Positions 42,325 to 60,629 of a DNA stretch of 64,000 bases are shown here, one piece after another. How positions within the stretch are numbered: the first letter of the stretch is position 1; each line of letters opens with the position of its first letter. Location: NCBI RefSeq assembly GCF_036208045.1, contig NZ_CP121472.1, positions 2,057,531 through 2,121,530 on the forward strand. The letters are read 5' to 3'. Origin of the DNA: Thiorhodovibrio winogradskyi. Its GTDB lineage: Bacteria; Pseudomonadota; Gammaproteobacteria; Chromatiales; Chromatiaceae. Position numbers and translations under genes: made by a program. The notes below the pieces were generated by a model that was not told where the DNA came from, did no database searches, and saw only the letters and a program-made list of their open reading frames with translations.

Positions 42325-42369
42325 ATCATCTCATTCTGATGCAAAGGCCACGGGCAGGGGTAAGCGCAA

Positions 42370-42861: not shown

Positions 42862-42888
42862 CCAGACTAGGGACTGACCGGGGGCATT

Positions 42889-44450: not shown

Positions 44451-44478
44451 CTTTCCTTCCGTCAGCCATCCGCAACGA

Positions 44479-45675
44479 ATGGCCACCGCCATGGATGATG
44501 GCATCGAACGCCTGCCAGGCTTCAATACTCTCGCGCTTCGCAGCGGACACCATCGCACGCAAGAGGGCGAGCACAGCGAACCCATCTTTGCGACATCCAG
44601 TTTCGTCTTCGCCTCCGCCGCCGAAGCCGCCGCCCGCTTCAGCGGGGACGCCCCAGGCAATGTTTATGCCCGCTTTACCAATCCCACGGTGCAGGCTTTC
44701 GAGCAGCGGCTAAATGCCCTCGAGGGCGGTGCCGGCTGTGTCGCCACCGCCTCCGGCATGGCGGCCATCCTGACCATGGTGCTCGGGCTATTGAAGAGCG
44801 GGGACCATATCCTCGCCTCGCGCAGCCTGTTCGGCAGTACCCGCATGCTGTTTGACAAATACCTGGCGCGCTTCGGGATCCAAACCCGGTATGTCCCCCT
44901 TGATGACCTTGACGCTTGGCGGGCAGCGATGGAGCCACGGACCCGGCTGCTGTTTCTCGAGACCCCCTCTAATCCACTGGCCGAAATGACTGCCATCGCG
45001 CCCCTGGCCGAACTGGCGCACCAACGGGACTGTCTGCTCGCGGTCGACAACTGCTTCGCCACCCCTGCCTTGCAGCGCCCGCTGGAGTGGGGCGCTGACT
45101 TGGTCATTCACTCCGCCACCAAATATCTGGACGGGCAGGGCCGCTGCCTGGGTGGCGCCGTCATCGCCCGCGATCCAGCCGTGATTGCCGACGTGTTCGG
45201 CGTGGTGCGTACCGCCGGTCCTTCCATGAGTCCCTTCAATGCTTGGGTCTTCCTCAAGGGTCTGGAAACGCTGAGTCTGCGCATGCGCGCCCACTCAGCA
45301 GGCGCGCAACAGCTCGCGGAATGGCTGATCGCGCATCCGACCGTTACCGGCGTGCACTACCCCGGCTTGGACCAACATCCCCAACATCAACTCATCGGCC
45401 ATCAGATGCTGCATGCCGGGGGGATTCTGTCGTTCGAGGTTGCTGGTGGCCGCGATGCCGCTTGGCGCGTCATCGATCACACCCAGATGCTCTCCATCAC
45501 CGCCAACCTCGGCGACACCAAAACCACAATCACCCATCCCGCTACCACGACCCACGCCCGTCTGACACCCGAAGAGCGCTTCGCCGCCGGCATCACCGAT
45601 GGCCTAATACGGCTCGCCGTGGGACTTGAGGATATTGCCGATATACAGGTCGATCTGGCGCGCGGACTCGATTGA
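44479..45675 (+). CDS. metZ: O-succinylhomoserine sulfhydrylase MetZ
   Basis: This encodes 398 residues of the Cys/Met-metabolism PLP class. The PLP Lys is in SATKYLDGQGR, and the loops TASGMAAI and ETPSNPL are present. MetZ makes homocysteine directly from O-succinylhomoserine and sulfide. The location after purF is the known marker for MetZ over MetB/MetC paralogues. ATG 44491 is a second possible start. The 3' end overlaps an opposite-strand remnant. Confidence 0.93.
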   Translation: MATAMDDGIERLPGFNTLALRSGHHRTQEGEHSEPIFATSSFVFASAAEAAARFSGDAPGNVYARFTNPTVQAFEQRLNALEGGAGCVATASGMAAILTMVLGLLKSGDHILASRSLFGSTRMLFDKYLARFGIQTRYVPLDDLDAWRAAMEPRTRLLFLETPSNPLAEMTAIAPLAELAHQRDCLLAVDNCFATPALQRPLEWGADLVIHSATKYLDGQGRCLGGAVIARDPAVIADVFGVVRTAGPSMSPFNAWVFLKGLETLSLRMRAHSAGAQQLAEWLIAHPTVTGVHYPGLDQHPQHQLIGHQMLHAGGILSFEVAGGRDAAWRVIDHTQMLSITANLGDTKTTITHPATTTHARLTPEERFAAGITDGLIRLAVGLEDIADIQVDLARGLD

Positions 45676-45858
45676 TTCGCCGTGCGATAGCAGAGTGTAG
45701 AGTGTGCCCAACGCCAGCGCGAAGAAATGGCTGCTAGCGATTAGTGCGCAAGGTCCGGCAATGGTCTGCGGTACCCCTACCCAGCGGTTGAACAGATAGC
45801 CGACGGCAAAGACCATCAGCACTTGGAGCGCTCGGACAGGCTGGGAGTCACGCCGTAT
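45604..45858 (-). pseudogene. Probable ACR3-type arsenite exporter fragment
   Basis: About 85 codons are open after a stop at 45859-45861. The segment LQVLMVFAVGYLFNRWVG, then IAGPCALIASSHFF, aligns by eye with the late helices of ACR3/ArsB carriers (which have a GASNFFELA motif at this place). The N-terminal 250 residues and the real C-terminus are absent, and the end runs antisense into metZ. It looks like a remnant. It could instead be a small two-helix protein of unknown type. Confidence 0.42.
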
Positions 45859-46244
45859 TCAGCTCGTCATGACAGTGCGTTCTCATTGAGAAGTCGCTCG
45901 CAGAGTTGTCGGGCATTTTCTTAGTCGAATCGGTCGATAGCTTGTGCTATTGCCTCAAGGTCCATTGACCGCGGCTGGCCGGCCGAGCCGCTGCGCGTTT
46001 TAGTGTCTCCTTGAGCCTGCTGTTTGCTGTTGGGCCTCCAGTTGGATCTTCAGCATACTAAAAGTGACAAGAGCGCTCAGGCTGTTGGCCTTGATCTGTG
46101 CATGCAGGGTTGAGAGCAGGTTCCACCAGATGGCTGGTGATTGACACCTCTTGAGGGGTCGGCAATCCGGCGACGCCCATGCTGATCTCGCGGAAATCGG
46201 TGACTTACTGATCAGGTTCTCTGACCTGGGGCTTGATAATGGTT
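45859..46244. other. Gene-free stretch with no clear feature
   Basis: About 390 bases separate the ACR3-like remnant from the threonylcarbamoyladenylate synthase gene. Short frames are broken by stops (one begins MDLEAIAQAIDRFD and meets a stop) and show no family pattern. No repeat or tRNA was seen. Decayed accessory DNA is likely. Confidence 0.4.
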
Positions 46245-47234
46245 TCAGTGCTGACCAGTCCTGCTTTTCGTTTCGGCCCGCTCCAAACGGTTGTTGATGG
46301 CATCCCACTCGGGCGATTTTGGGGGTTGCTCGACCAGAATTCGATCCAGTTTCAATTGGTCGAGTCTGCGCAAGTGCGCATACAGACCAGATGCATAGGA
46401 GTTTGGATCCCGCGGCATGATCACCCAGTGATGAGAGCCGATATCTGCAATTGACGTTTGCAAAGCGAGTACGGCCACTCTTGGCCTTGCTTGTGCCAGC
46501 ATCGCGGCAATCTCACTACAAGACATCACCGTCAAGGGTGTGGTCGGTGCGTAGTGCGAGGGCAAGCGACCCGAGGCACGGGGGCCAGCGCCGATGGCCG
46601 GTATGGCAACATTTTCACCCAGCAACTGCTCGATGTCGGTCAGGCCAATCATGCCCGGGCGCAGCAACCGGGGCTGGTCATCGCTGAAGTCGATGATTGT
46701 GGACTCCAAGCCGAGGCGACAGGCGCCGCCGTCGAGCACGGCGGCGACCTTTTCCCCGTGCGAAAACTCCTCCAGCACGTGCACGGCGGTGGTGGAGCTG
46801 ATGCGGCCAAAGCGATTGGCCGAGGGCGCCGCTAGCGCGGCGCCAAAGGCATGCAGCAGTTGCCGGGCGACCGGGTGCTCGGGTACGCGTAAGCCGACAG
46901 TCGCCTGCCCGCCTGTGATGCGGTTTGAAACACCAGTGGTTTTATTCAAGATGAGCGTCAGCGGCCCGGGCCAATAGAACTCGGCCAATCGCCAGGCCGC
47001 ATCCGGAATCGCGCGCGCCCAGGCCGTCATGGCCTGGGCATCGGGTAAGTGCACGATCAGCGGATGCTCGGTGGGCCGCCCCTTGGCGGTGAAAATCCGG
47101 CCAATGGCTTGATCATTCTGGGCATCGCCACCGAGGCCGTAGACGGTTTCGGTCGGAAAGGCGACCAAGTCACCCTGTTGCAACAGGGTGACTGCGCGCT
47201 GGATGCCGACTGGGTCAGGTCGCAGCAGTTCCAT
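46245..47234 (-). CDS. tsaC: L-threonylcarbamoyladenylate synthase (two-domain Sua5 type)
   Basis: This encodes 329 residues. The YrdC domain has PTETVYGLGGDA, KGRPTEHPLIVHL and APSANRFGRISST. A C-terminal SUA5 domain follows (residues 210-320). The enzyme makes the carbamoyl-adenylate used for t6A at tRNA position 37. The two-domain form differs from the single-domain E. coli TsaC. It starts 15 bases after pyrC, so both are probably on one transcript. Confidence 0.92.
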   Translation of the reverse strand: MELLRPDPVGIQRAVTLLQQGDLVAFPTETVYGLGGDAQNDQAIGRIFTAKGRPTEHPLIVHLPDAQAMTAWARAIPDAAWRLAEFYWPGPLTLILNKTTGVSNRITGGQATVGLRVPEHPVARQLLHAFGAALAAPSANRFGRISSTTAVHVLEEFSHGEKVAAVLDGGACRLGLESTIIDFSDDQPRLLRPGMIGLTDIEQLLGENVAIPAIGAGPRASGRLPSHYAPTTPLTVMSCSEIAAMLAQARPRVAVLALQTSIADIGSHHWVIMPRDPNSYASGLYAHLRRLDQLKLDRILVEQPPKSPEWDAINNRLERAETKSRTGQH

Positions 47235-47249
47235 GGCTGGCGCGAAGGT

Positions 47250-48287
47250 TCAAACCAGCCGCCAGGCGACGTCGGTTCCGGCGCGCAGTGGCAGGATCTC
47301 GTCCGACCCGGCACTGATCAGCTCGGGCACCGACCAGGCTTGGGCTGCGAGGGTGATGCTGTCCGCATTCCGGGGCAAGCCGTAAAAATCCGCGCCATGG
47401 CAACTGGCAAAGCCTTCCAGTCGATCCAAGGCCCCGGCAGTGGCGAAGATCTCCGTATAGAGTTCAATAGCGACCGGCGCACTGTAGATACCGGCGCAGC
47501 CGCAACCCGACTCCTTGGCGTGTTTTGGATGCGGCGCCGAATCCGTGCCGAGGAAAAACTTCGGGCTGCCGCTGGTGGCGGCGGCCAGCAACGCCTGGCG
47601 ATGGCTTTCGCGCTTGAGCAGCGGCAGGCAGTAATGATGCGGTCGCAACCCGCCATCGAAAAGCGCGTTGCGATTGAGTAACAAGTGATGCACGGTGATG
47701 GTCGCCGCGACCCGTTCGGAGGCCGCCAGCACATAGTCAACGGCGTCCTTGGTGGTGACGTGCTCCAGCACGGTGCGCAGGGCCGGAAAGCGGGCATTGA
47801 TCTGCTGCAGATGCCGCTCGATAAACACGGCTTCCCGGTCGAAGACATCGATTTCCGGGTCCGTGACTTCACCGTGCAACAGCAGCGGCAGATCGACCTC
47901 CTGCATGGCCGCGAACACCGCGTCAACCTTGCTCGGATCGCGAACGCCCGTGTCGGAATTGGTGGTCGCGCCGGCCGGATAATACTTAACCGCATGGACC
48001 GAATCCGCGGCCTTGGCCCGCCGGATTTCATCGGGCGAGGTGTTTTCGGTCAAGTAGAGGGTCATCAGCGGGTCGAAGCGCATGCCCTCGGGGACCGCCG
48101 CCAGAATGCGTTCACAATAGGCCACGGCCTGCGCCACGGTGGTCACCGGCGGCTTGAGGTTCGGCATCACCATGGCGCGCGCGAAGCAGCGTGCTGTCGC
48201 TGGGATCACCGACTTCAGCAGTTCACCATCGCGCAGATGGAGATGCCAATCGTCGGGTTTGGTGATGCGAATGTGTTGGTTTGACAT
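47250..48287 (-). CDS. pyrC: Dihydroorotase PyrC (type II)
   Basis: This encodes 345 residues. The zinc-binding HxH is in DDWHLHLRDG, the carbamylated Lys in VKYYPAGATTNS, and later His and Asp ligands in LLLHGEVTD, LEHVTT and GTDSAPH. It closes carbamoyl-aspartate to dihydroorotate in pyrimidine synthesis. The upstream SulP gene is 37 bases away on the same strand. Confidence 0.95.
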   Translation of the reverse strand: MSNQHIRITKPDDWHLHLRDGELLKSVIPATARCFARAMVMPNLKPPVTTVAQAVAYCERILAAVPEGMRFDPLMTLYLTENTSPDEIRRAKAADSVHAVKYYPAGATTNSDTGVRDPSKVDAVFAAMQEVDLPLLLHGEVTDPEIDVFDREAVFIERHLQQINARFPALRTVLEHVTTKDAVDYVLAASERVAATITVHHLLLNRNALFDGGLRPHHYCLPLLKRESHRQALLAAATSGSPKFFLGTDSAPHPKHAKESGCGCAGIYSAPVAIELYTEIFATAGALDRLEGFASCHGADFYGLPRNADSITLAAQAWSVPELISAGSDEILPLRAGTDVAWRLV

Positions 48288-48324
48288 GTCAAACTGGAGT
48301 ATCTGGTGATTGTTGCGAAGACCG

Positions 48325-50001
48325 TCATGCCGCGAGCATTTTCCGATCTGACGCGCTGTTTCTCACGCGTTTTCGTAAAACATCCATGGCGGCTTGAACG
48401 GCCGTGTGACGATCCGGGTAATCCAATACCTCTTCGCGATCGAACACCTTCAAGTTCCGCAGGCGCTTCTTGGCCGGTTCGCCGGCGCCCGCGACCATCA
48501 CCTGCCCCCCCGCCGCGATGACATCATAGGCCATAGTCTCAATGACCAGCGAGACCGAGGTGCCCATGAGCGGTACATCCGTCATGTCGAGAATCAGCAC
48601 CTTGGCGTTGGCGATGGCGGCGTGTTCGCGGGAGATGGCCTTGGCAACCCCAAAAATCATCGGGCCACTGAGTTGGAACAGCAGGATTTGGCCGTCCGCG
48701 GTCTCCAGCAAGACGCGGTCTTCGTCGCTGATCTCGATGCCGTCATCCAGGATGGAGATGGCTTTGACCTTGTGCGCCGGCAGTTCCGACAGCTTCTGGA
48801 TGGTGAGGAGGTTGGCTAGGAAGACACCGAAGCCGACGGCGACGATCAGGTCGAAGAAGACCGTCAGCAGCATGACGCTGTACATGAGGATGGTACTGGT
48901 TCTTGAAACCCGGTGCACCCGCTTCAGGAAGCTCCAGTCGAGGATGTCGATGCCCACCTTCATGGCAATGGCCGACAGGATTGCCATGGGCACATCCGCG
49001 AGCAGCGGCGCCGCCCACAGGACGACGACAAGCAGCAGCAGGGCGCGGATCACACCGGCCAGGATGGTCTTGGCGCCGGTCTGGATATTCGCCACGGTCC
49101 CCATGGTGGCACCGGCGCCGGGTAATCCGCCGAGCAGACCGGACAGGATGTTGCCGAGGCCCTGGCCAACCAGCTCGCGGTTGCTGTCGTGCTGTTCCCG
49201 GGTCAGGCTGTCCGCGATCATGGCGGTCAGCAGGGTATCGATGGCGCCCAGGGTGCCGAGGACGATGCCGTCAAGGAGAATCCGGGTGACTTCCTCAGGG
49301 GTGAAAGACGGCAGCATGAGACTGGGCAGCCCCATGGGAATCTCGCCAATGGTGCGCAGGCTGCCCGGCATTGTGAAGAAGATGACAACGGCGGTGCCGA
49401 TCAGCAGGACCAGGAGTTGCGGCGGGCAGAAGCGACGCCACCGAACCGGGAACAGCAGCAGGAAGCAAAAGGCCAGCCCGCCGAGCAGGAGTTCCGTCGC
49501 GTCAAGCTCCTGGATCAGCCCGGGAAGGGCATCAAGCGTAGCCAGTGCGCCGCCGGGAGGCGCCGCCTGTCCCAGCATGGGCGGGAGTTGCATCAGGATC
49601 AGGATGATGCCAATGCCGGACATGAAACCGGAGATGACCGCGTAGGGCATCAGGGTGATGAAACGCCCCAGTTTCATGAACCCGATCAGCATCTGGAACG
49701 CCCCAGCCACCATGACTACCGTGAAGGCCATGGCCATACCGTGCTCGGGATGGCGGGCCATCAGGCTGGTGATGACCGCGGTCATGACTACGGTCATGGG
49801 ACCGGTCGGCTCGGAAATCAGGCGGGTGGAGCCTCCGAACAGCGCCGCGAACAACCCGACGCAGACGGCGCCGTACAGGCCTGCCTGTGGACCGGCCCCG
49901 GAAGCCACGCCGAACGCAAGCGCCAGTGGCAGCGACAGGATGGAGGTGGTCACCCCGCCGGCAAGATCCGATCCAAAATGTTTGACTGTCAAGCGCTGCA
50001 T
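48325..50001 (-). CDS. SulP-family anion transporter with STAS domain
   Basis: This encodes 558 residues from ATG 50001; a longer frame upstream lacks a good start. It has 10-12 membrane helices with the SulP motifs LPLALAFGVASGAGPQAGLYG and GGSTRLISEPTGPM, then a C-terminal STAS domain (about 430-530, LILDMTDVPLMGTS). SulP carriers move sulfate or bicarbonate. The BicA-like length and its position next to a LysR gene and a CO2-fixing-type enzyme operon would fit bicarbonate uptake, but the substrate cannot be read from the sequence. Confidence 0.9.
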   Translation of the reverse strand: MQRLTVKHFGSDLAGGVTTSILSLPLALAFGVASGAGPQAGLYGAVCVGLFAALFGGSTRLISEPTGPMTVVMTAVITSLMARHPEHGMAMAFTVVMVAGAFQMLIGFMKLGRFITLMPYAVISGFMSGIGIILILMQLPPMLGQAAPPGGALATLDALPGLIQELDATELLLGGLAFCFLLLFPVRWRRFCPPQLLVLLIGTAVVIFFTMPGSLRTIGEIPMGLPSLMLPSFTPEEVTRILLDGIVLGTLGAIDTLLTAMIADSLTREQHDSNRELVGQGLGNILSGLLGGLPGAGATMGTVANIQTGAKTILAGVIRALLLLVVVLWAAPLLADVPMAILSAIAMKVGIDILDWSFLKRVHRVSRTSTILMYSVMLLTVFFDLIVAVGFGVFLANLLTIQKLSELPAHKVKAISILDDGIEISDEDRVLLETADGQILLFQLSGPMIFGVAKAISREHAAIANAKVLILDMTDVPLMGTSVSLVIETMAYDVIAAGGQVMVAGAGEPAKKRLRNLKVFDREEVLDYPDRHTAVQAAMDVLRKRVRNSASDRKMLAA

Positions 50002-50076
50002 GGATGCGTCATACCGCGAAAACAACCCAGCTGCGACCGTGCCGACCCGCGCCAAAATGCGCAAAATGCGATGGCA

Positions 50077-50979
50077 TCAGTCGCACTTCGCCGGCGCAAA
50101 GGTGTTGGGGGCTTTGTGATTTACAGCGACCACCGCCGGGTGCTTGGGCTCGCGTTCGCGCGCGATGGCGAAGTATTTGACCGTCGCGTCGTTCGCGCAT
50201 CCAAGGCTCCGCACGGCAAAGGCGTTCATCACCTCCTCGGCAATGACCGTCGGCACCGGGAACACGCCAAGGCCAGCCTGTCCGAAGGCCTTCATCAGTA
50301 CGGTGTCGTCGAACTCGCCAACAATGCGCGGATGGATACCCGCTTTTGCTAGCCAGTTGGTGACGGCCCCTCTGAGTGTGGCGCCTTTGCGTGGCAACAG
50401 CAAATGGGCTCCGTCAAGCGACTCCGGAAATCCTGACGCGTACTGGCGCGCGAGCGATTCGCACGCGCAAAAGGTCACGCTGCTCGTTCCCAATTCGTGG
50501 TTGAAGCCGCGAATGCCAAGTTCGCGTGGAAGAGGACGGTCGGCGATCAGGAGGTCGAGCCTGCGGATGGCCAGCTCCGCGAACAGGTTGTCTGGTTTGT
50601 CTTCGTGGCAGATCAGGCGCATGGGCCGGTCGATCTCAAAAGCCGGTTGCAACAGCCGGTAGGCCATGGATTTGGGAACGGCGTCCATCACGCCCACTTC
50701 AAACAACAACTCGTTTTCGATGGGGAAGTTGCGCAGACTCATCTCTAGCTCTTCACCCAACTGGAAGATCTTTTCCGCCTGGGCCAAGGTCAATTGACCG
50801 GCCTGGGTGAGTTCCAGCTTGCGGCCGACGCGGCGGAAGAGGTCGACTTCCAGGCTCTTTTGCAGCTCGCTGATCTGGCCGCTGATGGTCTGTGGTGTGA
50901 GATTCAGTCTTTCGGCTGCCCGATACACGCCCCCCAGGGTCGCCACATTCCAAAAGTAAAACAACTGCTTGTAGTTCAA
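50077..50979 (-). CDS. LysR-type regulator, NhaR-like
   Basis: This encodes 300 residues. The N-terminal winged helix-turn-helix reads YKQLFYFWNVATLGGVYRAA and AERLNLTPQTISGQISELQ, the NhaR-type signature. The effector domain occupies residues 95-295. It lies 75 bases upstream of the SulP gene on the same strand and divergent from the pyruvate:ferredoxin oxidoreductase operon. It may control either: NhaR relatives respond to sodium, and LysR proteins often act on a divergent operon. Confidence 0.9.
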   Translation of the reverse strand: MNYKQLFYFWNVATLGGVYRAAERLNLTPQTISGQISELQKSLEVDLFRRVGRKLELTQAGQLTLAQAEKIFQLGEELEMSLRNFPIENELLFEVGVMDAVPKSMAYRLLQPAFEIDRPMRLICHEDKPDNLFAELAIRRLDLLIADRPLPRELGIRGFNHELGTSSVTFCACESLARQYASGFPESLDGAHLLLPRKGATLRGAVTNWLAKAGIHPRIVGEFDDTVLMKAFGQAGLGVFPVPTVIAEEVMNAFAVRSLGCANDATVKYFAIAREREPKHPAVVAVNHKAPNTFAPAKCD

Positions 50980-50996
50980 AGCCCGGCGCTCTCGCG

Positions 50997-51019
50997 ATTG
51001 TCAGTTTCCCCCGAACAAT
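50997..51019. promoter_or_regulatory. Candidate LysR operator between lysR and porE
   Basis: An ATTGT-N13-ACAAT inverted repeat lies 18 bases upstream of the LysR start in the divergent promoter region (50980-51146). LysR sites are usually an interrupted dyad around T-N11-A. The match is weak and unproven. Confidence 0.3.
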
Positions 51020-51146
51020 TCAGCAGAAGAATACGAATATACTTTACTTTCCGCAAGGTTTATTTCTAGCCCTTCCTCGTCTGGCCGCGTTCTGGCGCGC
51101 CTTAAGCGAATCAAGACACATGAAGACAATCGAATCGGAGGTTGAC

Positions 51147-51725
51147 ATGTTTCCACGGCAATACAAAGTGGTTCCGGGACCAGAAGGATTTCTGCCACCG
51201 GCCGCCGCCTTGATGGGCGTCGAACTGCCGGAGCTGGGTGAAGGTCTCGTCGAAGGTGCGCGGGTTCCGACCGCACGCGCGTTGGAAGAGGCCGCGATGC
51301 GACTAATACGCGCCAAAAAACCGACCTTCTTCCCCGGTCCGCTCATTCTCTGGAACTGGAAGGATGGGATCGCGGAATAGGCGCGGGCGCTAAAAGATTT
51401 GGCCGACACCCTGGGTGTGAAAATCATCCCGATGCCGGATGATCGGCCCAGGTACCCGATGATCAACCCGGAGATCGAGGTCAACCCTAACCATCCGAAC
51501 CTGACCATCTGGCATAACAAGATCGATGTCTGCGTGTTCATCGGCGTGCATTGCCACTATGCCGATGTCGCCTTGAAGATCATTCGCGGCGGCACCGATT
51601 GCGCCACCATTGCCCTGTGCGCGGAAGCCGGCCACGAGGATGCCATGATCTCCCTGCGGGGTTTCAACTTGGCCGATTTGCAGGCGCTGACGGCGGCGGT
51701 CAAGCGGTTAAAGGCGGAGGACTGA
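51147..51725 (+). pseudogene. porE: PorE-like (CO dehydrogenase beta-subunit-like) subunit with internal amber codon
   Basis: GGAGG is placed five bases before the ATG at 51147. The frame gives MFPRQYKVVPGPEGF, ALEEAAMRLIRAKKPTFF and GPLILWNWK, meets TAG at 51378-51380, and continues in the same frame with ARALKDLADTLGVK to a TGA at 51723. The 191-codon whole matches the fifth subunit of five-part pyruvate or oxoacid:ferredoxin oxidoreductases (known from Hydrogenobacter as PorE). One base change (CAG, AAG or GAG to TAG) explains the stop. The second half is in good shape (TIWHNKIDVCVFIGVHCHYA), so the mutation is either recent or a sequencing error. Confidence 0.75.
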
Positions 51726-51726
51726 G

Positions 51727-52296
51727 ATGCGGCAGCAGCAAGTAAGAAGCCCCGAGTACCCGTTTTTCGAGGCGGAAAAGAAAAAGCACTTCCTGAGCGG
51801 CAGTGAAGCTATCCGCGAGACGATCAGGAAGGCAAATGTGGATATGGCCATCTCTTATCCCATCACGCCGCAGTCAGAGAGCATGCACCTGGTCGGCGAC
51901 CTCTTTGCCGAAGGCTATGTGAAAGAGTATTTCCGCGGCGAAAACGAGTTCGCGGTCATGTCCTCGGTGGCCGGCGTGCGCGTCTTCACCGCCACCGGCG
52001 GCCCCGGCACTATGCGGGCGTTCGAGATGTTCCCGGTGTGGGCCGGCTCGCGACTGCCCATTGTCTGTGCCTTCTTGACCCGCGGCATCAACAGTCCGCT
52101 GACGATCCAGCCGGATACCATGCTGGAAAACGCGCCGTTATCGTGCCCGAGTTCAACCGGGCGGGCTGGCTGGCCAAGGAGATCAAGGCCGTGGTGGACG
52201 CCCCCCCGGCAGGTGGTTGGCGCTCCCCGGGTCTATGGCGGCATGACCATGCCAGCCCATCTCATCGTCGATGAAATCAGGAGGGTGCTCCAGTGA
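51727..52296 (+). pseudogene. porA: Pyruvate:ferredoxin oxidoreductase alpha subunit with large internal deletion
   Basis: The N-terminal 130 residues are normal for PorA: AISYPITPQSE, ATGGPGTMRAFEMFPVWAG and RGINSPLTIQPDTM. There the frame breaks. In the next frame comes AVIVPEFNRAGWLAKEIK, the far C-terminal region, and after a seven-C tract (52202-52208) the frame returns to VVGAPRVYGGMTMP and the end. About 190-200 codons between the two are deleted, and one extra C restores the original frame. The product as written lacks most of domains II and III. It overlaps porB by four bases. Confidence 0.85.
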
Positions 52297-53156
52297 GTAC
52301 GCGCATCGTCAGCATCTCGCCCGCGTTCGAGGACGTGATGCCCCAGGAATACAAGGAACTGGTGGAGAACGGCCCGTACGGGAAAGACTACAAGGTCACT
52401 GATCTGGGCAAGTACAAGGAACTGATCGAGGAGCATCCGCTGTGCGCCGGCTGCGGGCTGGCGCTGTCGCTGCGGCTGGTGCTCGGCTCGCTGCCGAGCC
52501 CCGAGGATACGGTGATCGTTGGCTCCACCGGCTGCAGCGCCCTGGTGTTTCCGCAGGTCGGCCTGCACAACGTCCACTTGCTGTTCGGCAACCAGAACGC
52601 CGTGGCGAGCGGCATCAAGCGCGCGCTGAGCCTGCGTTTTCCGGACCAGGTGAAGGATGTGGTCGTGGTTGCCGGCGACGGCGCCACTGCCGACATCGGC
52701 CTGGACATGGTCATGCAGTCCTGGTTCCGGCGCGAGAAGATCGCGACCATCATGCTCGACAACGAGGCCTACGCCAACACCGGCGGTCAGGAGAGCGGCA
52801 TGAGCATGGAAGGGACTGTGATGAACATGGTGCCCAAGGGCAAGGTGTTCCCCAAAGCCGATCTGCCCCGGGTGGCCGAAGCCTCCGGCTGCGCCTATGT
52901 GGCCGCGACCTCCCCGTCGCGCCCGGGCAAGCTGGGCAAGATGGTGCGACGCGCCATCCTGATCGCCCGCGAGGTCGGATCCACCTATGTGCAGCTGCTC
53001 AGTCCCTGTCCCACCAACTTCAAGACCAAGCCCTCGGACACCTTGGTGTCGATCAAGACCCGGGAAAAGGAGAAGCACTTCAAGCAGTCCGAATACATCT
53101 CCGACGACGCCCGGAGTTACTTGAGCGCGCTCGAGGAGGCAAGCAGACATGGCTGA
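52293..53156 (+). CDS. porB: Pyruvate/2-oxoacid:ferredoxin oxidoreductase beta subunit
   Basis: This encodes 287 residues from a GTG with AGGAGG upstream. The TPP-binding segment is intact: AGDGATADIG followed by NEAYANTGGQ, as is the Cys-containing HPLCAGCGLAL (Cys-x-x-Cys for an iron-sulfur cluster). It is the catalytic partner of PorA for pyruvate or another 2-oxoacid. It is the only fully intact gene of its operon. Confidence 0.93.
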   Translation: MSTRIVSISPAFEDVMPQEYKELVENGPYGKDYKVTDLGKYKELIEEHPLCAGCGLALSLRLVLGSLPSPEDTVIVGSTGCSALVFPQVGLHNVHLLFGNQNAVASGIKRALSLRFPDQVKDVVVVAGDGATADIGLDMVMQSWFRREKIATIMLDNEAYANTGGQESGMSMEGTVMNMVPKGKVFPKADLPRVAEASGCAYVAATSPSRPGKLGKMVRRAILIAREVGSTYVQLLSPCPTNFKTKPSDTLVSIKTREKEKHFKQSEYISDDARSYLSALEEASRHG

Positions 53157-53379
53157 GAAAATTTCCATTCGCATGTCCGGCCTGGGCGGTCAGGGTGTCG
53201 TCACCGCGGCGCATATCCTGGGCATGGCCGCCTACAAGGATGATCTGCAGGTTACCACCTATTGCGAGGACAGAGACAAGGTAACCGTGGACCAGAAGCG
53301 TTGCAAGGGATGCGGCATCTGCATCACCCTGTGCACCAAGGATGCGATGAGCGTGAAACAAGTCAGCCTGAACGGCTAA
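53149..53379 (+). pseudogene. porG: Shortened PorG/PorD fusion (gamma start joined to ferredoxin end)
   Basis: Seventy-six residues. The start KISIRMSGLGGQGVVTAAHI is the N-terminus of the gamma subunit, normally about 190 residues. After KDD it jumps to QVTTYCEDRDK and a ferredoxin motif CKGCGICITLCTKDAM (CxxCxxCxxxC), which belongs to the delta subunit. The stretch between them is missing. The join is in frame, so a small hybrid protein could still be made. I regard it as a deletion remnant. It overlaps porB by eight bases. Confidence 0.7.
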
Positions 53380-53384
53380 CCGTC

Positions 53385-54314
53385 ATGTCTGGAACCGGAG
53401 GACGCGGGGACATTGGGTTGGAGCCGTTCGGTTTCCTGCCGCATCGGCACCAGCCGCGCTCCTTCGACGACGCACCCGCGCGCCTGAGGCGGCGCGTCCT
53501 CGGGGTTGACTACCTGCACCTGCGCGGCAAAGGCTCGGGCGATCTCTATGTCACCCGCCACGGATGGCCGGTGCTGGAGTCGATCCTCCCGTCGCAGTGG
53601 TTCGTCGGCGACCGTCTGAGCAAGATCGGGCGCCAGCTCGCCGGGGCGACCGGCGCCGTCTACCGGATGCCAGTCCCCCATCGGACGCGACCCGGGTTTG
53701 CGCTGGTGGTGAAGTTCAGCCGCTTCGCCCAGGATGCCCTGGTTTCGATCGACCCGAACGAGCCGCTGGGTTGGGCCGAGCGTGATCGGATCGCGGCGAG
53801 TGAGTTTTTGTCCCCTTTCCAGGAATTTGGCAACCTGGAGCGGTTGCGCGCGCGCGCCGGCGTGCGGATTCCGACCAAGGCGCCGCTGGCGATCTACTCG
53901 CCGGCAACCCGCTACCTCGGCTGGCAACTCGGGCGCATTGATCACCGCCGCTGGTGGTATGATCGCGTGCTCGCCGAGGATCAGGCCGAGCAGCCCGAGG
54001 ATGCCCGAGTGGTTTATTTCTGGGAGCGGATCTACGTCCTGATCTATCGCTGGATCGACGGGGTCGACGCCGAGACGGCCTGTCAGCAGGCGTATCTCAC
54101 CATCAGCGAGCTGCGCGCGCTCTACCAGAAGGCACGGCAAGAGCTGCGGGGTTTCGGCTGGGACGTGATCGATCACAAGGCGCGCCATGTCATCGTCCGC
54201 CCGGCTGTGGAGCCGGGCCGGCTGGTCCGTTGCCACGGCCGGACGCTCTGGGCGCTGGTCGATTACGAATTGCTGGTGCCTCATCCCGCGCCCGACTCGT
54301 CGCGCCCGGTATAG
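53385..54314 (+). CDS. Unknown soluble protein downstream of por operon
   Basis: This encodes 309 residues with ATG at 53385, five bases after the PorG/PorD remnant. It is soluble and rich in Arg, Trp and Tyr. Recurrent motifs are LGVDYLHLRGKGSGDLYVTR near residue 35, the strand-like VYRMPVPHRTRPGFALVVKFSR near 95, and DARVVYFWERIYVLIYRWIDG near 210. The second part is somewhat reminiscent of a kinase-like fold, but no catalytic motif is visible. I do not recognise the family. It could be a regulator or an assembly factor for the operon. Confidence 0.75.
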   Translation: MSGTGGRGDIGLEPFGFLPHRHQPRSFDDAPARLRRRVLGVDYLHLRGKGSGDLYVTRHGWPVLESILPSQWFVGDRLSKIGRQLAGATGAVYRMPVPHRTRPGFALVVKFSRFAQDALVSIDPNEPLGWAERDRIAASEFLSPFQEFGNLERLRARAGVRIPTKAPLAIYSPATRYLGWQLGRIDHRRWWYDRVLAEDQAEQPEDARVVYFWERIYVLIYRWIDGVDAETACQQAYLTISELRALYQKARQELRGFGWDVIDHKARHVIVRPAVEPGRLVRCHGRTLWALVDYELLVPHPAPDSSRPV

Positions 54315-54411
54315 CGGCAGAGGGACCTGTTCACGCAGCCACCAGTCTCCTTGATGAGAGCGTTGAGAATCGATATTTGGCGATCATAGCTTAAACGAGG
54401 GAGATATTCTG

Positions 54412-55002
54412 ATGTCCGCGGAGACCCACGACCCGTCGGTGAACGGCCGACCCTATGCCCTGATCCAGCGCCTGCTGCATTGGCTGATCGCTCTCTTCGT
54501 GATCCTGTTGCTGATGGCCGGTTTGGTGATTGGGACGCTCGGCTATGAGGGGCTGGTCGAGCGTTTCGGCAATGATGTGACCAATTTGATGTACAAAACC
54601 CATAAGACCTTTGGTGTGCTGGTTCTGGGGTTGATGATCGCGCGACTGGGGCTGCGTGTCGCGCTGGGCGCGCCAGATTACGCCCGCGCATTGCCGGGCT
54701 GGCAGCGCATCGCAAGCCGCGTCAGTCATTGGGCGTTCTATGGGTTGTTGATCGCCATGCCGGTTGTTGGCTGGCTCGCGACCGCGGCCGGTGGGTATCC
54801 GGTCGAGTTCTTCAATTGGACATTGCCCGGCTTGATCGACAGGAACCCGGAACTCAGCAAGGCCTTGTTCGAGCTCCACGCGCTGATCGGCTTCGTGCTG
54901 ATCGCTTTGATCCTGGTTCACGCCGGCGCCGCGCTGCTGCATTGGCTCCTCTGGCGCGACGGGGTGATGCACCGCATGGCGTTGTTCGCCAAGCGCGACT
55001 GA
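54412..55002 (+). CDS. Cytochrome b561-family membrane protein
   Basis: This encodes 196 residues with four membrane helices and the paired His of the di-haem b561 type: LIQRLLHWLIALF near residue 23, the HKTFG His near 64, VSHWAFYGLLI, and HALIGFVLIALILVHAGAALLHW. It probably carries electrons to or from the quinone pool. A GAGGGAG ribosome-binding site precedes the ATG. A membrane protein gene follows after seven bases. Confidence 0.88.
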   Translation: MSAETHDPSVNGRPYALIQRLLHWLIALFVILLLMAGLVIGTLGYEGLVERFGNDVTNLMYKTHKTFGVLVLGLMIARLGLRVALGAPDYARALPGWQRIASRVSHWAFYGLLIAMPVVGWLATAAGGYPVEFFNWTLPGLIDRNPELSKALFELHALIGFVLIALILVHAGAALLHWLLWRDGVMHRMALFAKRD

Positions 55003-55009
55003 ATCGCCG

Positions 55010-56425
55010 ATGGACTTAAGGTTCCGGCCTTCAGCCATGGATGCGGCCGGGCTGGCGCCGCGCGCGATCGACGGCCTGCTGGCGCTGGTCGCGGCGGCCT
55101 ATCTGATCGCCGCCTGGGTCGGCTTGCCCTTGTATGCCGACGGCGGTCATTATCTGTTCCGCATCATCGTCGATGGCCTGCCCTATGTCTCGGACGGACG
55201 TCTGGCCGCCGTCATCCCGCAACTGCCGGCTTGGCTGCTGCTGCGATTCGGCGCCAGCCTCGATGCCCTGAGGCTGGCGTTCTCGCTCGGCTATCTGCTG
55301 CTTCCGGTGCTGTCGCTGCTGGCCTGCTGGTTGATCGTCCGCTCCCGCGCTCCCGGGTTGATGGTGCTCCCGGCAAGCGGCGCGCTGCTCAATCAGATCA
55401 ATGCCTCTGCGGTCTCGGAACTGCTCGCCATCCTCTATCTGATCTGGCCGCTGGTCCTCGCGCTCAGCCTGTACGGAGAAAAACGCGCCGTCAGGTGGCT
55501 CCCGTGGCTGGCCCCGCCCCTGATCCTGACCCTGCATCCGGTCGCGCTGCTGGCCTGTCTGATGCTGGCCGTCGTCGTCGAGCTGACCATTCGGGATCGA
55601 TGGCTGTCCGCCTGGCTCGCCGCCTGCGCCTTGCCGCGGCTGCTGTGGAGCCTGCGCGGGCTGAGCGGCTATGAACAATCCCACCTCGCCGGGGACGGCG
55701 CGCTCTGGTATCTGCTGACGCAGACGCCCGGGCAGCATCTGATGCTGTTTGGCGTCGTCGTGGTCGGCCTGGGCATCGCGCTTGCCTGGCTGAAAGGCCC
55801 GCTGCCTGTGTTCAGTTTCGCGCCAACGGCTGTTGCCGGTGTGCTGATCGTCGCCGCCATCCTCCTCGGCCACGAGTTGATCTGGGGACAGGGCTGGCGG
55901 CTGAAGTCCGGCATTACCTTCCCCGCGCAACTGCTGCTGATGTTGATCGCCGCGCTGCACAGCCCGGCCCGAGCGCGACGCCCCGCATCACATCCGCAAG
56001 CGCTCCTGTCCCACTGGACGCCGGTGTTGCGGATCGCCTTGATGGCCATCGCCGCGCTGATGCTGGTCAAGAGCGCGGCCTGGTGGACCGCGACCCGCGG
56101 GCTGCAGAATGTCGTCAGTGAACCTGGCGCGCCTTGTATTCAGCACGGTCGTCAGTCACCCTTTGCGCTGCAATGGCCATGGATGGCGATGATCGACGAG
56201 TGGAATGCACCCATGAATGCCTTGCTCTTCCGCCCCGATTTCAGACAGCGCGGAAGCGATACCCTCGCCCCGATCGCGATCCTGCTGCCACGCGATGGTT
56301 GCGAGCGGGTTGCGTCTACCGGGATGGCTTACATGACCCCATGGTTGCCGGTCTCCTGGCGCATCCTCGATGAGCGCTTTGGCCCCTTGCGGCCATTGTC
56401 CAGCGCACAGCCGGCGACGCCTTGA
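55010..56425 (+). CDS. Polytopic membrane protein of unknown function
   Basis: This encodes 471 residues with 10-11 hydrophobic segments between residues 20 and 355, and a C-terminal soluble end with one Cys pair region (residues 375-470). There are periplasm-exposed Asp/Gly motifs near residue 40 (YADGGHYLF). The layout (many helices, then a soluble tail) recalls family C glycosyltransferases, but no catalytic motif is obvious. It lies between cytochrome b561 and the RibD-type gene and overlaps the start region of the latter. Confidence 0.8.
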   Translation: MDLRFRPSAMDAAGLAPRAIDGLLALVAAAYLIAAWVGLPLYADGGHYLFRIIVDGLPYVSDGRLAAVIPQLPAWLLLRFGASLDALRLAFSLGYLLLPVLSLLACWLIVRSRAPGLMVLPASGALLNQINASAVSELLAILYLIWPLVLALSLYGEKRAVRWLPWLAPPLILTLHPVALLACLMLAVVVELTIRDRWLSAWLAACALPRLLWSLRGLSGYEQSHLAGDGALWYLLTQTPGQHLMLFGVVVVGLGIALAWLKGPLPVFSFAPTAVAGVLIVAAILLGHELIWGQGWRLKSGITFPAQLLLMLIAALHSPARARRPASHPQALLSHWTPVLRIALMAIAALMLVKSAAWWTATRGLQNVVSEPGAPCIQHGRQSPFALQWPWMAMIDEWNAPMNALLFRPDFRQRGSDTLAPIAILLPRDGCERVASTGMAYMTPWLPVSWRILDERFGPLRPLSSAQPATP

Positions 56426-56427
56426 GC

Positions 56428-57399
56428 ATGGACGCGAGCACTGACACCGAGTCGGCGCGGAGGCTGTGGGCGCTGATTCTCGGCGCCTCGCGGTTGGTTC
56501 GCTCGGGCGCGCTCGATCCCGGGATCCAGGGCCGTTTCGCACTGCGCGATGGACCCGCGCCCGCACTCGAGCGGGTGTCGGCGGGGCCAGAGGAGGCCGC
56601 CATCGAATGGTCACCGCGCGACGGCTGGCGACTGACGTCAGCGCCGCCCGCGGATCCGGCACGCTCCCTGGCTGAACTCTATCTACCACTGTGCCAACCC
56701 ATGACCAAGGGTCGCCTGGTCTTCGCCCACCTCGGGCAAAGCATCGACAGCTGCGTCGCCACCGCCTGCGGGGACTCCTGTTATGTCACCGGGGATGAGA
56801 ACCTGCGCCACCTGCACCGCATGCGCGCGCTCTCCGACGCCGTGCTGGTGGGCACCGAGACCGCCGCCTGCGATGACCCCCAACTCACCACACGGATGGT
56901 GAAGGGTGACAATGCCGTTCGCATCATTCTTGACCGCCGCCGTCGGCTGCGCGCGGATCTGCGCGTCTTCACCGACGATGCCGCGGACACCTGGCTGATC
57001 TGTGACCACAGCCGGCTTGCGGCGCCCGGCCCGGTCCCCAAGCGAGGGCGGCTGCTCGGCGTCCCGACCCGCGATGGTCGGCTGGATCTGAGCGTCCTGG
57101 TCAACACAGTCGCCGAGCTTGGCCTGCGCCGCCTGTTCATCGAGGGCGGCGGCGCCACCGTGTCGGCCTTTGTCGCCGCCGGTCTGGTCGATCGCTTGCA
57201 GGTCGCCATCGCGCCACTTTTGATTGGCGGCGGGCGCGCCGGCCTGTCGCCACCGACCAGCGACCTGCTGCGCAACGCCATCTGCCCGCCGTGTCGCCTC
57301 TATCGCATGGGGCGCGACATCCTCTACGACCTGGACATGCGCCATCCGCGCGAGGGTCGCGCCGATCAACCGCCGAGCGGTCTGGAGCGGATTGCCTGA
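56428..57399 (+). CDS. RibD C-terminal-domain reductase (deaminase domain absent)
   Basis: This encodes 323 residues from the ATG at 56428. The C-terminal 230 residues form a RibD_C/DHFR-like fold: RLVFAHLGQSIDSCVA, VLVGTETAACDDPQLTTR, LFIEGGGATVSAFVAAGLVD and the NADPH-binding GGGRAGL. The N-terminal 85 residues lack the deaminase zinc motif of RibD, so it is a stand-alone reductase. It reduces a ribosylamino-pyrimidine in riboflavin synthesis or a related pteridine-like substrate here. It converges with the seven-gene operon that includes a PTPS-like gene, and only 49 bases separate the stop codons. Confidence 0.84.
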   Translation: MDASTDTESARRLWALILGASRLVRSGALDPGIQGRFALRDGPAPALERVSAGPEEAAIEWSPRDGWRLTSAPPADPARSLAELYLPLCQPMTKGRLVFAHLGQSIDSCVATACGDSCYVTGDENLRHLHRMRALSDAVLVGTETAACDDPQLTTRMVKGDNAVRIILDRRRRLRADLRVFTDDAADTWLICDHSRLAAPGPVPKRGRLLGVPTRDGRLDLSVLVNTVAELGLRRLFIEGGGATVSAFVAAGLVDRLQVAIAPLLIGGGRAGLSPPTSDLLRNAICPPCRLYRMGRDILYDLDMRHPREGRADQPPSGLERIA

Positions 57400-57448
57400 G
57401 CGCTGTCATCCGCGGACCCAGGTCACCCGGAGAGCCAGGTCAGGCAGT

Positions 57449-59074
57449 TCAGCCGTTCGCATTCCGCCCCAGCCCGCGAATGCCGCGCGGCAGCGCGGCG
57501 TGCTCGGCGCGCTCGAACAGCCATTGCACCAGCACCGCGAGCGCCGCGGCCGGCAGCGCGCCTTCGAGAATCAACCCCAGGTCGTCGAGGCGGATGCCGG
57601 CCAGAATGGGTTGGCCATAGCCGCCGGCGCCGATCAGGGCGCCGAGGGTGGCGGCGCCAACATTGATGACCGCGGCGGTCTTGATGCCGGCGAGGATGGT
57701 TGGCAGCGCCAGCGGGATCTCGACCAAGCGTAGGCGCGCGCTCGGCGGCAGCCCGAGTGCGTCGGCGGACTCGATCATGGCGGTGGGAATGCCGTTGATC
57801 CCGGCGTGGGTGTTGCGCACGATCGGCAACAGGCTATAGAGGAACAAGGCCACCAGAGCCGGGCCGGCGCCGATGCCGAAGAAGGGGATCATCAACACCA
57901 GCAAGGCCAGCGCCGGAATGGTCTGCGCGATACCGACAGTGGCCAGCAGCAGCTGACCGAGGCGCGGTCGGTGCGCGGCGGCGAGGCCCAGCGGGATGGC
58001 AACCAGCACGGCCGCGAACAGGGACACCCCGACCAGGGTGACATGCTCAAGTGTGCGTTGCGCGAGGCGGCTGGCGAGACTCCGGGTATGGGTCTGCGTC
58101 TCGACCCCCAAGCGCTTGCGCAACAGCTCGCCGGCCACCTGCTGCTCGGAGCGGCCCTCAAGTTGAACGGCGGCATTCATCGCCGTCATGCGCGCGGCGT
58201 CGATCAGCCCCAGGGCTCGTTGAAGCGCGACCACGGCATCCGGCGAGCGCCGCGCCAGGTCGGCGCGATAAAGCAAGACCGCGTCGTACTGGGTGAACCA
58301 GTCGCGATCATCACGCAGCGGACGCAGCTGGTAATGGGCAATCTCGGCGTCGGTGGTGTAAAGATCGGTCAGGTCCGCCTCGCCGCTTGCGAGCGCGCGG
58401 TAGGCCAGCTCATGCTCCAGCCCCCGGACATCGGTCTGCGGCAGTCCGTAGAAGGATCTTAGCCCCGCCCAACCATCGGCACGGTCCATGAACTCGTTGC
58501 CAAAGCGAAACCGCAGCTCGGGGTGATCCAACAGATCCGAAATGCGCGCGATGCCAAGCGATGCCGCCCGCGCTTCCGGCATGCCAAGGGCATAGTTGTT
58601 CTGATATCCGAGCGAGCCGGCCAGGCGGATGCCCCGGGCGGCCAGCCGCGCCTCCAGGCTTTGGCTCGGGCTTTGGCTCGGGCTTTGTCCCAGATTGGCG
58701 CCCTCCTCCGGCAGTATCTCGTGCAGCAGCGTCCCGGTGTAGTCGACATAGGCATCAATCTCACCATTGACGAGCGCATTGAAGACAATGCGGGTGCCGC
58801 CGAGCGCCCGCCGGTGCCGCACCGGCAGACCGGCCTCGGCGACCAGCCCCTGCAGCACCTCGCCAAGAATGATCCCCTCGGTGAACTTCTTGCTGCCGAT
58901 TAGGATCTCGTCATCCGGGCGGCTGCATGCGCCGAGCAAACCGAGCACCAGAACGACCAAGACCAGCCGCCAGCCGAGCCGCGCGCAGCGCCCGGTCACG
59001 CCGCTTGGCCGGGCTGCTGGTGCAACTCGTCGCGCGCGGCCCGGCATGGGAGAAATCCGTGCTCGGACCTTCAT
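57449..59074 (-). CDS. ABC transporter binding-protein/permease fusion (osmoprotectant type)
   Basis: This encodes 541 residues. A lipoprotein-like signal (LGLLGAC, Cys near 51) is followed by an OpuAC-type binding domain (residues 55-320, GSKKFTEGIILGEVLQGL). The permease domain follows (about 335-520) with the EAA-like motif ALGLPPSARLRLVEIPLALP. Fused binding/permease chains occur in quaternary-amine (YehZ/OpuC-like) systems. The substrate may be different here because of the pterin-like neighbours. It overlaps the ATPase gene by four bases and is the last gene of the operon. A 12-bp repeat (58657-58688) adds SPSQ units to the binding domain. Confidence 0.88.
   Translation of the reverse strand: MKVRARISPMPGRARRVAPAARPSGVTGRCARLGWRLVLVVLVLGLLGACSRPDDEILIGSKKFTEGIILGEVLQGLVAEAGLPVRHRRALGGTRIVFNALVNGEIDAYVDYTGTLLHEILPEEGANLGQSPSQSPSQSLEARLAARGIRLAGSLGYQNNYALGMPEARAASLGIARISDLLDHPELRFRFGNEFMDRADGWAGLRSFYGLPQTDVRGLEHELAYRALASGEADLTDLYTTDAEIAHYQLRPLRDDRDWFTQYDAVLLYRADLARRSPDAVVALQRALGLIDAARMTAMNAAVQLEGRSEQQVAGELLRKRLGVETQTHTRSLASRLAQRTLEHVTLVGVSLFAAVLVAIPLGLAAAHRPRLGQLLLATVGIAQTIPALALLVLMIPFFGIGAGPALVALFLYSLLPIVRNTHAGINGIPTAMIESADALGLPPSARLRLVEIPLALPTILAGIKTAAVINVGAATLGALIGAGGYGQPILAGIRLDDLGLILEGALPAAALAVLVQWLFERAEHAALPRGIRGLGRNANG
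58657..58688. repeat. 12-bp tandem repeat in ABC binding-protein domain
   Basis: The unit GGCTTTGGCTCG occurs twice, followed by a partial third copy. It is in frame with the fusion gene and encodes SQSP units in a surface loop. Confidence 0.85.
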
Positions 59075-59802
59075 GCGAGATGACTGCGCTGCGCGCGCAC
59101 GAAACGTTCGACGAAGGGCTCGGCGGGCTGGTTCAGCATATCGGCCAGGGTTCCGCTCTGCACGATGCGGCCAGCGCGCATCAGCACGATGCTGTCGGCT
59201 AGGAAGGCCGCCTCGGGCAGGTCGTGGGTCACCAGAACGACTGTCTTGCCCAGGGTCGCGAAGATCTCTTTGAGTTCCTCCTGCAGGTCGAAGCGGATCA
59301 TGGGATCCAGGGCGCCGAGCGGCTCGTCGAGCAACAAAACCTCCGGGTCCAGCATCAAGGCGCGCATCAGTCCCAGGCGCTGATTCTGGCCGCCGGACAG
59401 CTCACCGGGATAGCGTGCCAAGGCCACGCGCGGGAAATGCGTCAGCTCCAGCAGCTCGGTCAGCCGGGTGTCGATCCGCGCCGGGGGCCAATTCAAGTAG
59501 CGGGCCATGAGCGCGACGTTCTCTTGTGCCGTCAGATGCGGAAACAGGCCGCCCTGCTGAATCACATAGCCCATGCGCTGGCGCTGGGAACGCATCGTCT
59601 TGCGCTCAAGGCCTTGGCCATCGAAGCGCACCTGTCCCGCATCGGGCTCGATCAAGCCAATCAGGGTGCGTAACAGCGTGGATTTGCCACAGCCAGATGG
59701 CCCGATCAGCGCCGTGGTCCGCCCGCGCGCAAGCCGCAGACTGACGGCGTCCAGGGCCAGGGTTGCACCATAGTGCTTGGTGACTTGATCGAGCTCGAAC
59801 AT
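59071..59802 (-). CDS. ABC transporter ATP-binding subunit
   Basis: This encodes 243 residues from ATG 59802; an upstream start in the 3' end of the methyltransferase gene is less likely. It has Walker A GPSGCGKST (residue 34), signature LSGGQNQR, Walker B LLLDEPLGALD and switch His in VTHD. It powers the binding-protein/permease fusion downstream, with which it overlaps by four bases. Class: quaternary-amine/osmoprotectant-type importer ATPase. Confidence 0.93.
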   Translation of the reverse strand: MFELDQVTKHYGATLALDAVSLRLARGRTTALIGPSGCGKSTLLRTLIGLIEPDAGQVRFDGQGLERKTMRSQRQRMGYVIQQGGLFPHLTAQENVALMARYLNWPPARIDTRLTELLELTHFPRVALARYPGELSGGQNQRLGLMRALMLDPEVLLLDEPLGALDPMIRFDLQEELKEIFATLGKTVVLVTHDLPEAAFLADSIVLMRAGRIVQSGTLADMLNQPAEPFVERFVRAQRSHLA

Positions 59803-59810
59803 GCGCGACT

Positions 59811-60629
59811 CTACTGCGGCTGAAGAAACAGATCCTGGTGGCCGACGCGGATCAGCAACTCGCCGGCGGCGAGAGCGGCCTGACGCCGACCATGCCATGC
59901 CTGGATGCGCGCGCTCTCGCTCGGCCGTCGTCGCTCGACCGCCTCCGCCCAGCCCGCGATCAGATGCGCGGCGAGAGCGCGGTCAGTGCGGTCCAATCGC
60001 CAATCCGACCGGCCCTGATGCAGGCGGAACCCCTGTGCTTCGCCGAACTGCCGGAGTGTGCGTGCCGCATCCGGCCCGAGCGCCGGCCCCAGGCCCTTGT
60101 CTCGGCGCTGATCGGTGTTGAATTCCGTCATCATCCAGTCGTCATCGGGGTGCTTGGGATGCAGGTCGACGTGTCCGTCATAGGTGGTCGCGACCAAGAG
60201 CGCGGCGCCTTTGCGCCGACACAAGGCCACCAGGTCTGCTAGCCAGGCCGCGGATACCAGATCCAGTAGCGCGCTGGCGCTCACCAGGGTCGAGGCTTCG
60301 ATGTCGGCAAGCGCGTCTAAAGCCCGCAGCGAGCCCAAGCGGGTGCTCAGTCCCGCGAGCCGTGACGAATCGGGTGCCGTGGCGACCAGCCGCTCGAGCA
60401 GCTCCGCATCCTGATCGATACAAACCCAGTGCTGGAGACCCGGCAGCCGCGGAAGAAGATAGCGCAGATTGGAGCCAGACCCACAACCGAGATCGACCAC
60501 CGGCAGCTGATCGCGGCCGGCGGCCCAGCGAGTGACCGCCGCCAGGACGGGCGCCGATCGCGAGCGATGGTCGACCGGCTCGCGCAGGCTCAGCCAATCC
60601 GTCGCGAAGCGCTCGGTCTCCTCAGGCAT
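59811..60629 (-). CDS. SAM-dependent methyltransferase
   Basis: This encodes 272 residues. The start ATG at 60629 overlaps the glycosyltransferase by eight bases. SAM motif I is VVDLGCGSGSNLRYLL near 45, then CIDQDAELLERL and a later motif LVSASALLDLVS. The C-terminal part has DDWMMTEFNTDQRRDKGLG. The class is small-molecule methyltransferase; the substrate is probably the product of this operon. Confidence 0.86.
   Translation of the reverse strand: MPEETERFATDWLSLREPVDHRSRSAPVLAAVTRWAAGRDQLPVVDLGCGSGSNLRYLLPRLPGLQHWVCIDQDAELLERLVATAPDSSRLAGLSTRLGSLRALDALADIEASTLVSASALLDLVSAAWLADLVALCRRKGAALLVATTYDGHVDLHPKHPDDDWMMTEFNTDQRRDKGLGPALGPDAARTLRQFGEAQGFRLHQGRSDWRLDRTDRALAAHLIAGWAEAVERRRPSESARIQAWHGRRQAALAAGELLIRVGHQDLFLQPQ

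Follow-up and report, generated by a model that had tools for sequence, protein, structure and literature searches.

What enzyme did a row of five por-type gene families in the purple sulfur bacterium Thiorhodovibrio winogradskyi once encode, how was it lost, and what do its neighbours suggest about the direction in which it worked? The row lies on the plus strand at 51147-53379 of a 64,000-nucleotide stretch of DNA, the whole of which is referred to here as the window. Its Pfam order runs from PF02552, present in two halves, through POR_N (PF01855) and a TPP-binding beta chain to a short gamma/ferredoxin-like fusion ORF. All five families thus stand in a single row and in the order expected for a pseudogene remnant of a five-subunit-type pyruvate:ferredoxin oxidoreductase (POR); PF01558 was found by Pfam in the operon of an intact relative. 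As the order is the same at 36 other loci, within the limits of their contigs, the arrangement is not due to chance. Delta, alpha and beta were present in all 36; the contig end of L027 truncates delta, and L050 has it split between two frames. Gamma was seen in 35 and epsilon in 34, the exceptions being contigs that stop short of the gene (L046 for gamma, L042 and L046 for epsilon). When 15 alpha chains, first and second copies together, were aligned, the best PDB sequence match was POR alpha 9bt4_B (E 9.2e-49), and homology together with the pyc neighbours described below points to pyruvate as the probable substrate. We also observed a second, more distant porA-porB pair beside delta, gamma and epsilon in 18 of the 36 loci (L028, L029, L030-L036, L039, L041, L045, L047, L049, L054, L056, L057 and L061), as if two catalytic pairs made use of one set of small subunits.

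A first-pass annotation had called this a five-subunit-type por row, and the PF02552, PF01855 and TPP domains in the window agree with that, given that the delta of five-subunit POR and OGOR enzymes is described as PF02552-like in the relevant passages of PMC2607301 and PMC10052474. Its porE and porD labels, however, were interchanged: in the nomenclature of PMC2607301, the PF02552-type subunit, here the first gene, is delta (porD) and the ferredoxin-like one is epsilon (porE). The operon is very probably the pseudogene remains of an Aquificaceae-type five-subunit POR with the order delta-alpha-beta-gamma-epsilon, in a Chromatiaceae-like genome.

Lesions were read by alignment against three close operons, those of a Thiohalocapsa MAG (L026), Halochromatium roseum (L051) and H. 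glycolicum (L027, whose contig begins inside delta), to which the por row is 84-92% identical in DNA depending on the segment. The delta pseudogene (51120..51725, plus strand; PF02552, CODH/ACS-epsilon-like) carries a TAG at 51378-51380, where both relatives covering the site, L026 and L051, have a lysine codon. The amber codon splits the gene into ORFs at 51120-51380 and 51399-51725, both of which match PF02552, so that no intact delta is left. The porA remnant (alpha, PF01855; 51727..52296, plus strand) retains 189 of about 380 amino acids and has suffered three changes. Near 51968, 15 bp are missing in frame, and copies of a 9-bp direct repeat, perfect in L051, bracket the loss. At 52121|52122 a further 559 bp have been deleted, the same number whether L026, L051 or L027 serves as reference. 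The third change is a one-base difference in the length of a C-run near 52200, beyond which the C-terminus is again in frame. The codon loss amounts to 186+5, and the POR_N match spans only profile positions 4-108 of 231 in a gene that encodes 380 amino acids in L026, L027 and L051.

By comparison, porB (beta; 52293..53156, plus strand) is open over 287 amino acids and 93% identical to that of L026. It matches PF02775, and its ORF contains both the TPP motif GDGx4I and the CX2C motif that PMC10052474, in the part concerned, gives for beta. At 53149..53379 on the same strand, a deletion of 656-657 bp has fused the start of porG (gamma) in frame with the last part of the ferredoxin-like epsilon gene, giving a 76-aa ORF. 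About the first 36 of 221 gamma residues are left, and of the two epsilon cluster motifs the first was deleted and the second is kept in the fusion. By reading, microhomology was absent at the 559-bp junction and reached at most about 2 bp at the porG/ferredoxin junction. These lesions are the ones that the first-pass annotation had listed: an amber codon in the first gene, about 190 codons lost from porA with a frame shift, porG fused to the ferredoxin gene with a deletion, and porB as the sole whole gene. The comparison with relatives that it had proposed was run as well, and yielded close intact operons in Thiohalocapsa and Halochromatium (porB 93%). Alpha and beta together form the TPP active site of this family, and for this reason the remaining genes are not expected to form an enzyme.

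Could the operon be intact in the cell and its deletions be artefacts of assembly or consensus calling? One lesion, the homopolymer length change, is a typical sequencing error and would fit such an explanation. However, the window genome is a single contig of 5,478,625 bases (its two genus mates have 5,417,120 and 5,466,623 bases), and PMC10609205, in its genome statistics, gives 5.48 Mb at 1589x PacBio coverage for T. winogradskyi, 5.42 Mb for T. frisius and 5.47 Mb for T. litoralis, with coverage of the three ranging from 528x to 1589x. A substitution stop, a direct-repeat deletion and two large clean deletions at separate sites would demand more than one type of error, and otherwise invariant residues are altered in delta, porA and porB. 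The published coverage, the different kinds of lesion and the altered invariant positions make an assembly error very unlikely indeed, and we treat the decay as real.

Next, we investigated the age of the damage. Ratios of dN/dS were calculated from changes unique to one sequence, and the neutral fraction of the window branch was estimated with a bootstrap 95% interval. Codon counts excluded window 52122-52205 (out of frame), gapped codons, stop codons and, for delta, L027 (contig-end cut); as an exception, the count behind the lineage-specific dN/dS of porB given below scored the amber of delta as one nonsynonymous change. Over the same columns, dN/dS of porA plus porB was 0.118 in the window and 0.132 in L026, and the neutral fraction of the window branch was -0.02 (95% interval -0.20 to 0.12). 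For delta, dN/dS was 0.18 in the window and 0.05 in L026, with a neutral fraction of 0.14 (0.001 to 0.28), an interval that barely excludes zero, and the nonsynonymous:synonymous ratio did not differ significantly between the two (Fisher p=0.12). Among otherwise invariant columns, the window is altered in 3/70 for delta, 1/56 for porA, 1/99 for porB and 0/14 for porG. None is altered in the seven comparison sequences except in the delta of L033 (1/71) and of L027 (2/34), the latter taken as a contig-edge artefact. Since changes in porA and porB still look selected, we date the decay as recent compared with the separation from the relatives. The earlier claim that the damage is recent thus stands for porA and porB and is less supported for delta, which may have been relaxed before the other genes.

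Simple decay does not account for the synonymous excess of delta (51150-51750) on the window branch (35:13, against 30:64 for porA/porB; p=6e-6). As a separate observation, the first 150 bases of delta show 77% identity to L026, compared with 93% between L026 and L051 over this stretch. Recombination within the operon was considered as a source of this uneven divergence and rejected, as quartet site patterns on both sides of the 559-bp deletion favour the same split (12 vs 5 on one side, 24 vs 3 on the other).

The survival of porB alone raises the possibility that PorB has been kept for a reason, being still made and working by itself or with another alpha. No other gene of the row is whole, and the lineage-specific dN/dS of porB (0.18, compared with 0.16 in an intact relative) would also fit retained function. 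Yet the porA fragments show equally low dN/dS, so that the low value in porB fits recent loss; an alpha chain is required for the TPP site, no other intact alpha of its type was found in the genome, and one otherwise invariant PorB residue is altered. Retention of PorB for a function is accordingly highly improbable.

Loss of the operon need not mean loss of the reaction. Besides the window, the genome search listed a NifJ-size frame of 1240 amino acids, a fused chain of 578 amino acids and two more distant proteins. In all three genus genomes the strongest POR_N match falls in a stop-free frame of 1216-1240 amino acids, whose length and sequence lead us to take it for NifJ; each also encodes a second alpha-type chain, 576-601 amino acids long. 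As the NifJ-size frame is intact, the pyruvate:ferredoxin reaction may persist. The first-pass description of the locus as the loss of a CO2-related carbon enzyme is hence right for the multi-subunit operon, which is broken, and need not extend to the reaction itself. This bears on the reductive TCA cycle enzymes listed in PMC10609205, where the pertinent passage counts 'por/nifJ' among those present in all three Thiorhodovibrio species: with the multi-subunit por of T. winogradskyi dead, that assignment rests on the NifJ-type enzyme.

How the operon came to T. winogradskyi is a question of origin only. It could be ancestral to the genus and have been lost whole in the two sister species, and other Chromatiaceae do carry related operons, close ones in L026, L027 and L051 and one at 52% in G019. 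Against this, searches of the two genus mates gave no porB hit at E 1e-20 and none to PF02552, and the only operon DNA match in them is one of 38 bases in G002, lying some 3 kb inside the NifJ region. The window between about 46.2 and 55.0 kb has no colinear counterpart in either, as judged by DNA searches and by tblastn with the stretches beside the flanking blocks. In addition, PF02552 exceeded the cut-off in only 2 of the 142 genomes searched (the window genome and G019; 5 at E 0.001), a set outside which the Halochromatium and Thiohalocapsa genomes were reached via named contigs. An ancestral operon is therefore the less probable of the two histories, the other being gain by the window lineage followed by decay. 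Each of the three genus genomes has different genes past the conserved block that ends at window position 45675 (also L114 and L115), and this region is likely a rearrangement hotspot.

We then turned to the genes beside the operon. Divergent from it, on the minus strand at 50077..50979, lies a LysR regulator that we call NhaR-like because its NF008284 score of 216.9 bits is below the curated cut-off of 219; it is 55% identical to one near the operon in Desulfobotulus (L030). No NhaR gene stands beside the operon in Halochromatium or Thiohalocapsa, and relatives elsewhere in those genomes are only 40-43% identical, so that this position is common only to the window and Desulfobotulus. Beyond the regulator, a full-length SulP transporter (48325..50064, minus strand) matches NF050096 over nearly its whole length with 755.7 bits, below the curated cut-off of 880, and is named BicA-like for that reason. 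It is followed on the minus strand by an amidohydrolase (47250..48287; dihydroorotase-like, PF01979; a putative pyrC) and by a Sua5 threonylcarbamoyl-AMP synthase (46245..47234), a relative of which lies just upstream of delta in a Desulfuromonadales locus (L028). On the other side of the operon, we observed an orphan open frame of 309 amino acids (53385-54314, plus strand) with coding-like base composition; searches of Pfam, NCBIfam and PHROG gave no match for it, and none of the 91 other genomes searched contains a relative.

The intact relatives place these genes in context. For the Halochromatium neighbours, the longer stretches L128 and L129 replaced L051 and L027. In both, the operon runs into a biotin carboxylase gene, then a PYC_OADA/biotinyl carboxylase gene and then a BicA-like transporter; in H. 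glycolicum a dihydroorotase-like gene comes next after bicA, and in L026 bicA is cut by the contig end. We read the two carboxylase genes as putative pyruvate carboxylase genes, pycA-pycB, while their domains might also fit an oxaloacetate decarboxylase-type role. The BicA-like protein of the window is 87% identical to the Halochromatium one encoded after pycB, against 53% to the other copy in its own genome, and the amidohydrolase is likewise 87% identical to that after bicA in H. glycolicum. The dN/dS of bicA was 0.19-0.21 against the two Halochromatium sequences and 0.22 between those two. Neither PycA nor PycB was found in window 40001-60000, and over the whole window genome the closest PycB match reaches only 53%. 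As bicA and the amidohydrolase are kept and the locus no longer has pyc genes, the por region appears as one part of a larger rearranged module. The first-pass annotation had overlooked the neighbouring bicA, and the pycA-pycB of intact relatives, as belonging to the same neighbourhood.

Is this association peculiar to Chromatiaceae? A bicarbonate transporter was found within about 5 kb of the operon in 12 of 37 loci (the 36 and the window): 8 have SbtA and 4 have BicA, which in one case is truncated by a contig end. None was seen in the other 25, some of which are on short contigs. Other neighbours over the same loci were MpsC (8), PurK (6), PurE (5), PycA (4), Sua5 (2) and NhaR (2). The commonest neighbour family was DUF6671, found at 10 loci (L033, L041, L044, L047, L049, L050, L053, L054, L056 and L058; PF20376, checked on L050). 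An Sbt_1 gene was present in 13 of 18 genomes, a proportion that is no unbiased rate as the 18 were picked from the 36 loci to include loci with SbtA nearby; 12 of the 13 have a single copy, one of these being a contig-end fragment. The chance of Sbt_1 adjacency is about 0.5% per genome, from which arithmetic gives about 0.2 expected loci compared with 8/36 observed, and a binomial value can serve only as a guide because the choice of genomes favoured SbtA loci and the lineages are not independent. Among the papers listed in literature searches, none pointed to a link of five-subunit POR operons to bicarbonate transporters; PMC7325909, on Hakubella-like Actinobacteria, names both SbtA and por in the passages at hand and leaves them unlinked there.

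The decay itself is ordinary in kind, and the five-subunit-type operon is already a known kind of system; the bicarbonate link is a better lead than the pseudogene operon. From the shared neighbourhood we infer that operon and neighbours make up a bicarbonate-fed carboxylation module. Because the Halochromatium operon runs into pycA-pycB-bicA, the ancestral module most likely combined bicarbonate uptake with both carboxylations. Bicarbonate would enter through BicA, POR would make pyruvate from acetyl-CoA, CO2 and reduced ferredoxin, and pyruvate carboxylase would make oxaloacetate from pyruvate and bicarbonate. Such a route could serve as a replenishing path for a phototroph growing on acetate; acetate and pyruvate are used by all three Thiorhodovibrio according to the physiological part of PMC10609205. 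In the window lineage, the locus no longer has the pyc genes, bicA is found beyond the other end of the operon and in the reverse orientation, and POR has decayed, a loss plausibly tolerated if the NifJ-type enzyme performs the same reaction. The bicA and NhaR-like genes are still open frames.

Extended to the other loci, these observations lead us to a tentative proposal, which we consider plausible though somewhat short of probable. The five-subunit POR operon may be the catalytic core of a mobile, bicarbonate-fed reductive carboxylation module spread over several phyla and paired with each lineage's own inorganic-carbon transporter, BicA for Chromatiaceae and SbtA for Bacillota and others. 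Further enzymes that use bicarbonate (PurK, pyruvate carboxylase, Sua5) would often accompany it. The window would then show the module losing the enzyme and keeping the transporter and regulator, and delta could be a re-acquired third TPP-enzyme domain or a nucleotide-binding subunit that favours carboxylation. The transporters beside the operon suggest the working direction of the enzyme and its limiting substrate, and provide a genomic handle on delta. Moreover, a half-lost module with close intact relatives offers a natural test of which parts are still useful after the enzyme is gone.

The role of the delta subunit is described as 'intriguing' in the relevant passage of PMC10052474. A delta profile searched against PDB sequences gave no match at E 0.01. 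The predicted fold of a relative's delta (pLDDT 71) matched CODH epsilon 9c0s_C with Z 11.2 and an rmsd of 3.1 over 129 residues; formylmethanofuran dehydrogenase B came first at Z 14, Sir2 reached Z 10-12 and CODH epsilon/TPP enzymes Z 10-11. The fold thus fits PF02552 and indicates no specific function, since the similarity to formylmethanofuran dehydrogenase B, Sir2 and TPP enzymes is equal or greater. We also considered delta as a stray CODH/ACS gene and rejected this, because it leads the operon in 36/36 loci and the literature places it in the enzyme. The CODH/ACS epsilon subunit (CdhB) shares PF02552, but delta of the window type sits in an oxidoreductase operon and not with CODH.

The closest known systems are the five-subunit POR/OGOR enzymes of Hydrogenobacter thermophilus and Aquifex aeolicus, which, in the account of subunits in PMC10052474, have the same alpha, beta and gamma, a two-cluster ferredoxin-like epsilon and a CODH/ACS-epsilon-like delta. 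Compared with these, the Halochromatium operons add pyc genes and bicA, and the operon in the window has four of its five genes broken. The passages of PMC10052474 that treat its distribution limit such a delta to Aquificaceae, whereas here delta leads the operon in many other lineages. Leptospirillum and Nitrospina have the same kind of enzyme (PMC2607301, PMC3578206, in the sections concerned), PF02552 being the delta of the Leptospirillum OGOR. Both are named among aerobic or micro-aerophilic autotrophs with the reductive TCA cycle in that part of PMC10052474, whereas Thiorhodovibrio has the Calvin cycle, as noted in PMC10609205. The NifJ-type single-chain PFOR, finally, is expected to carry out the same reaction as the lost operon, but is one chain of about 1,200 amino acids without a delta subunit.
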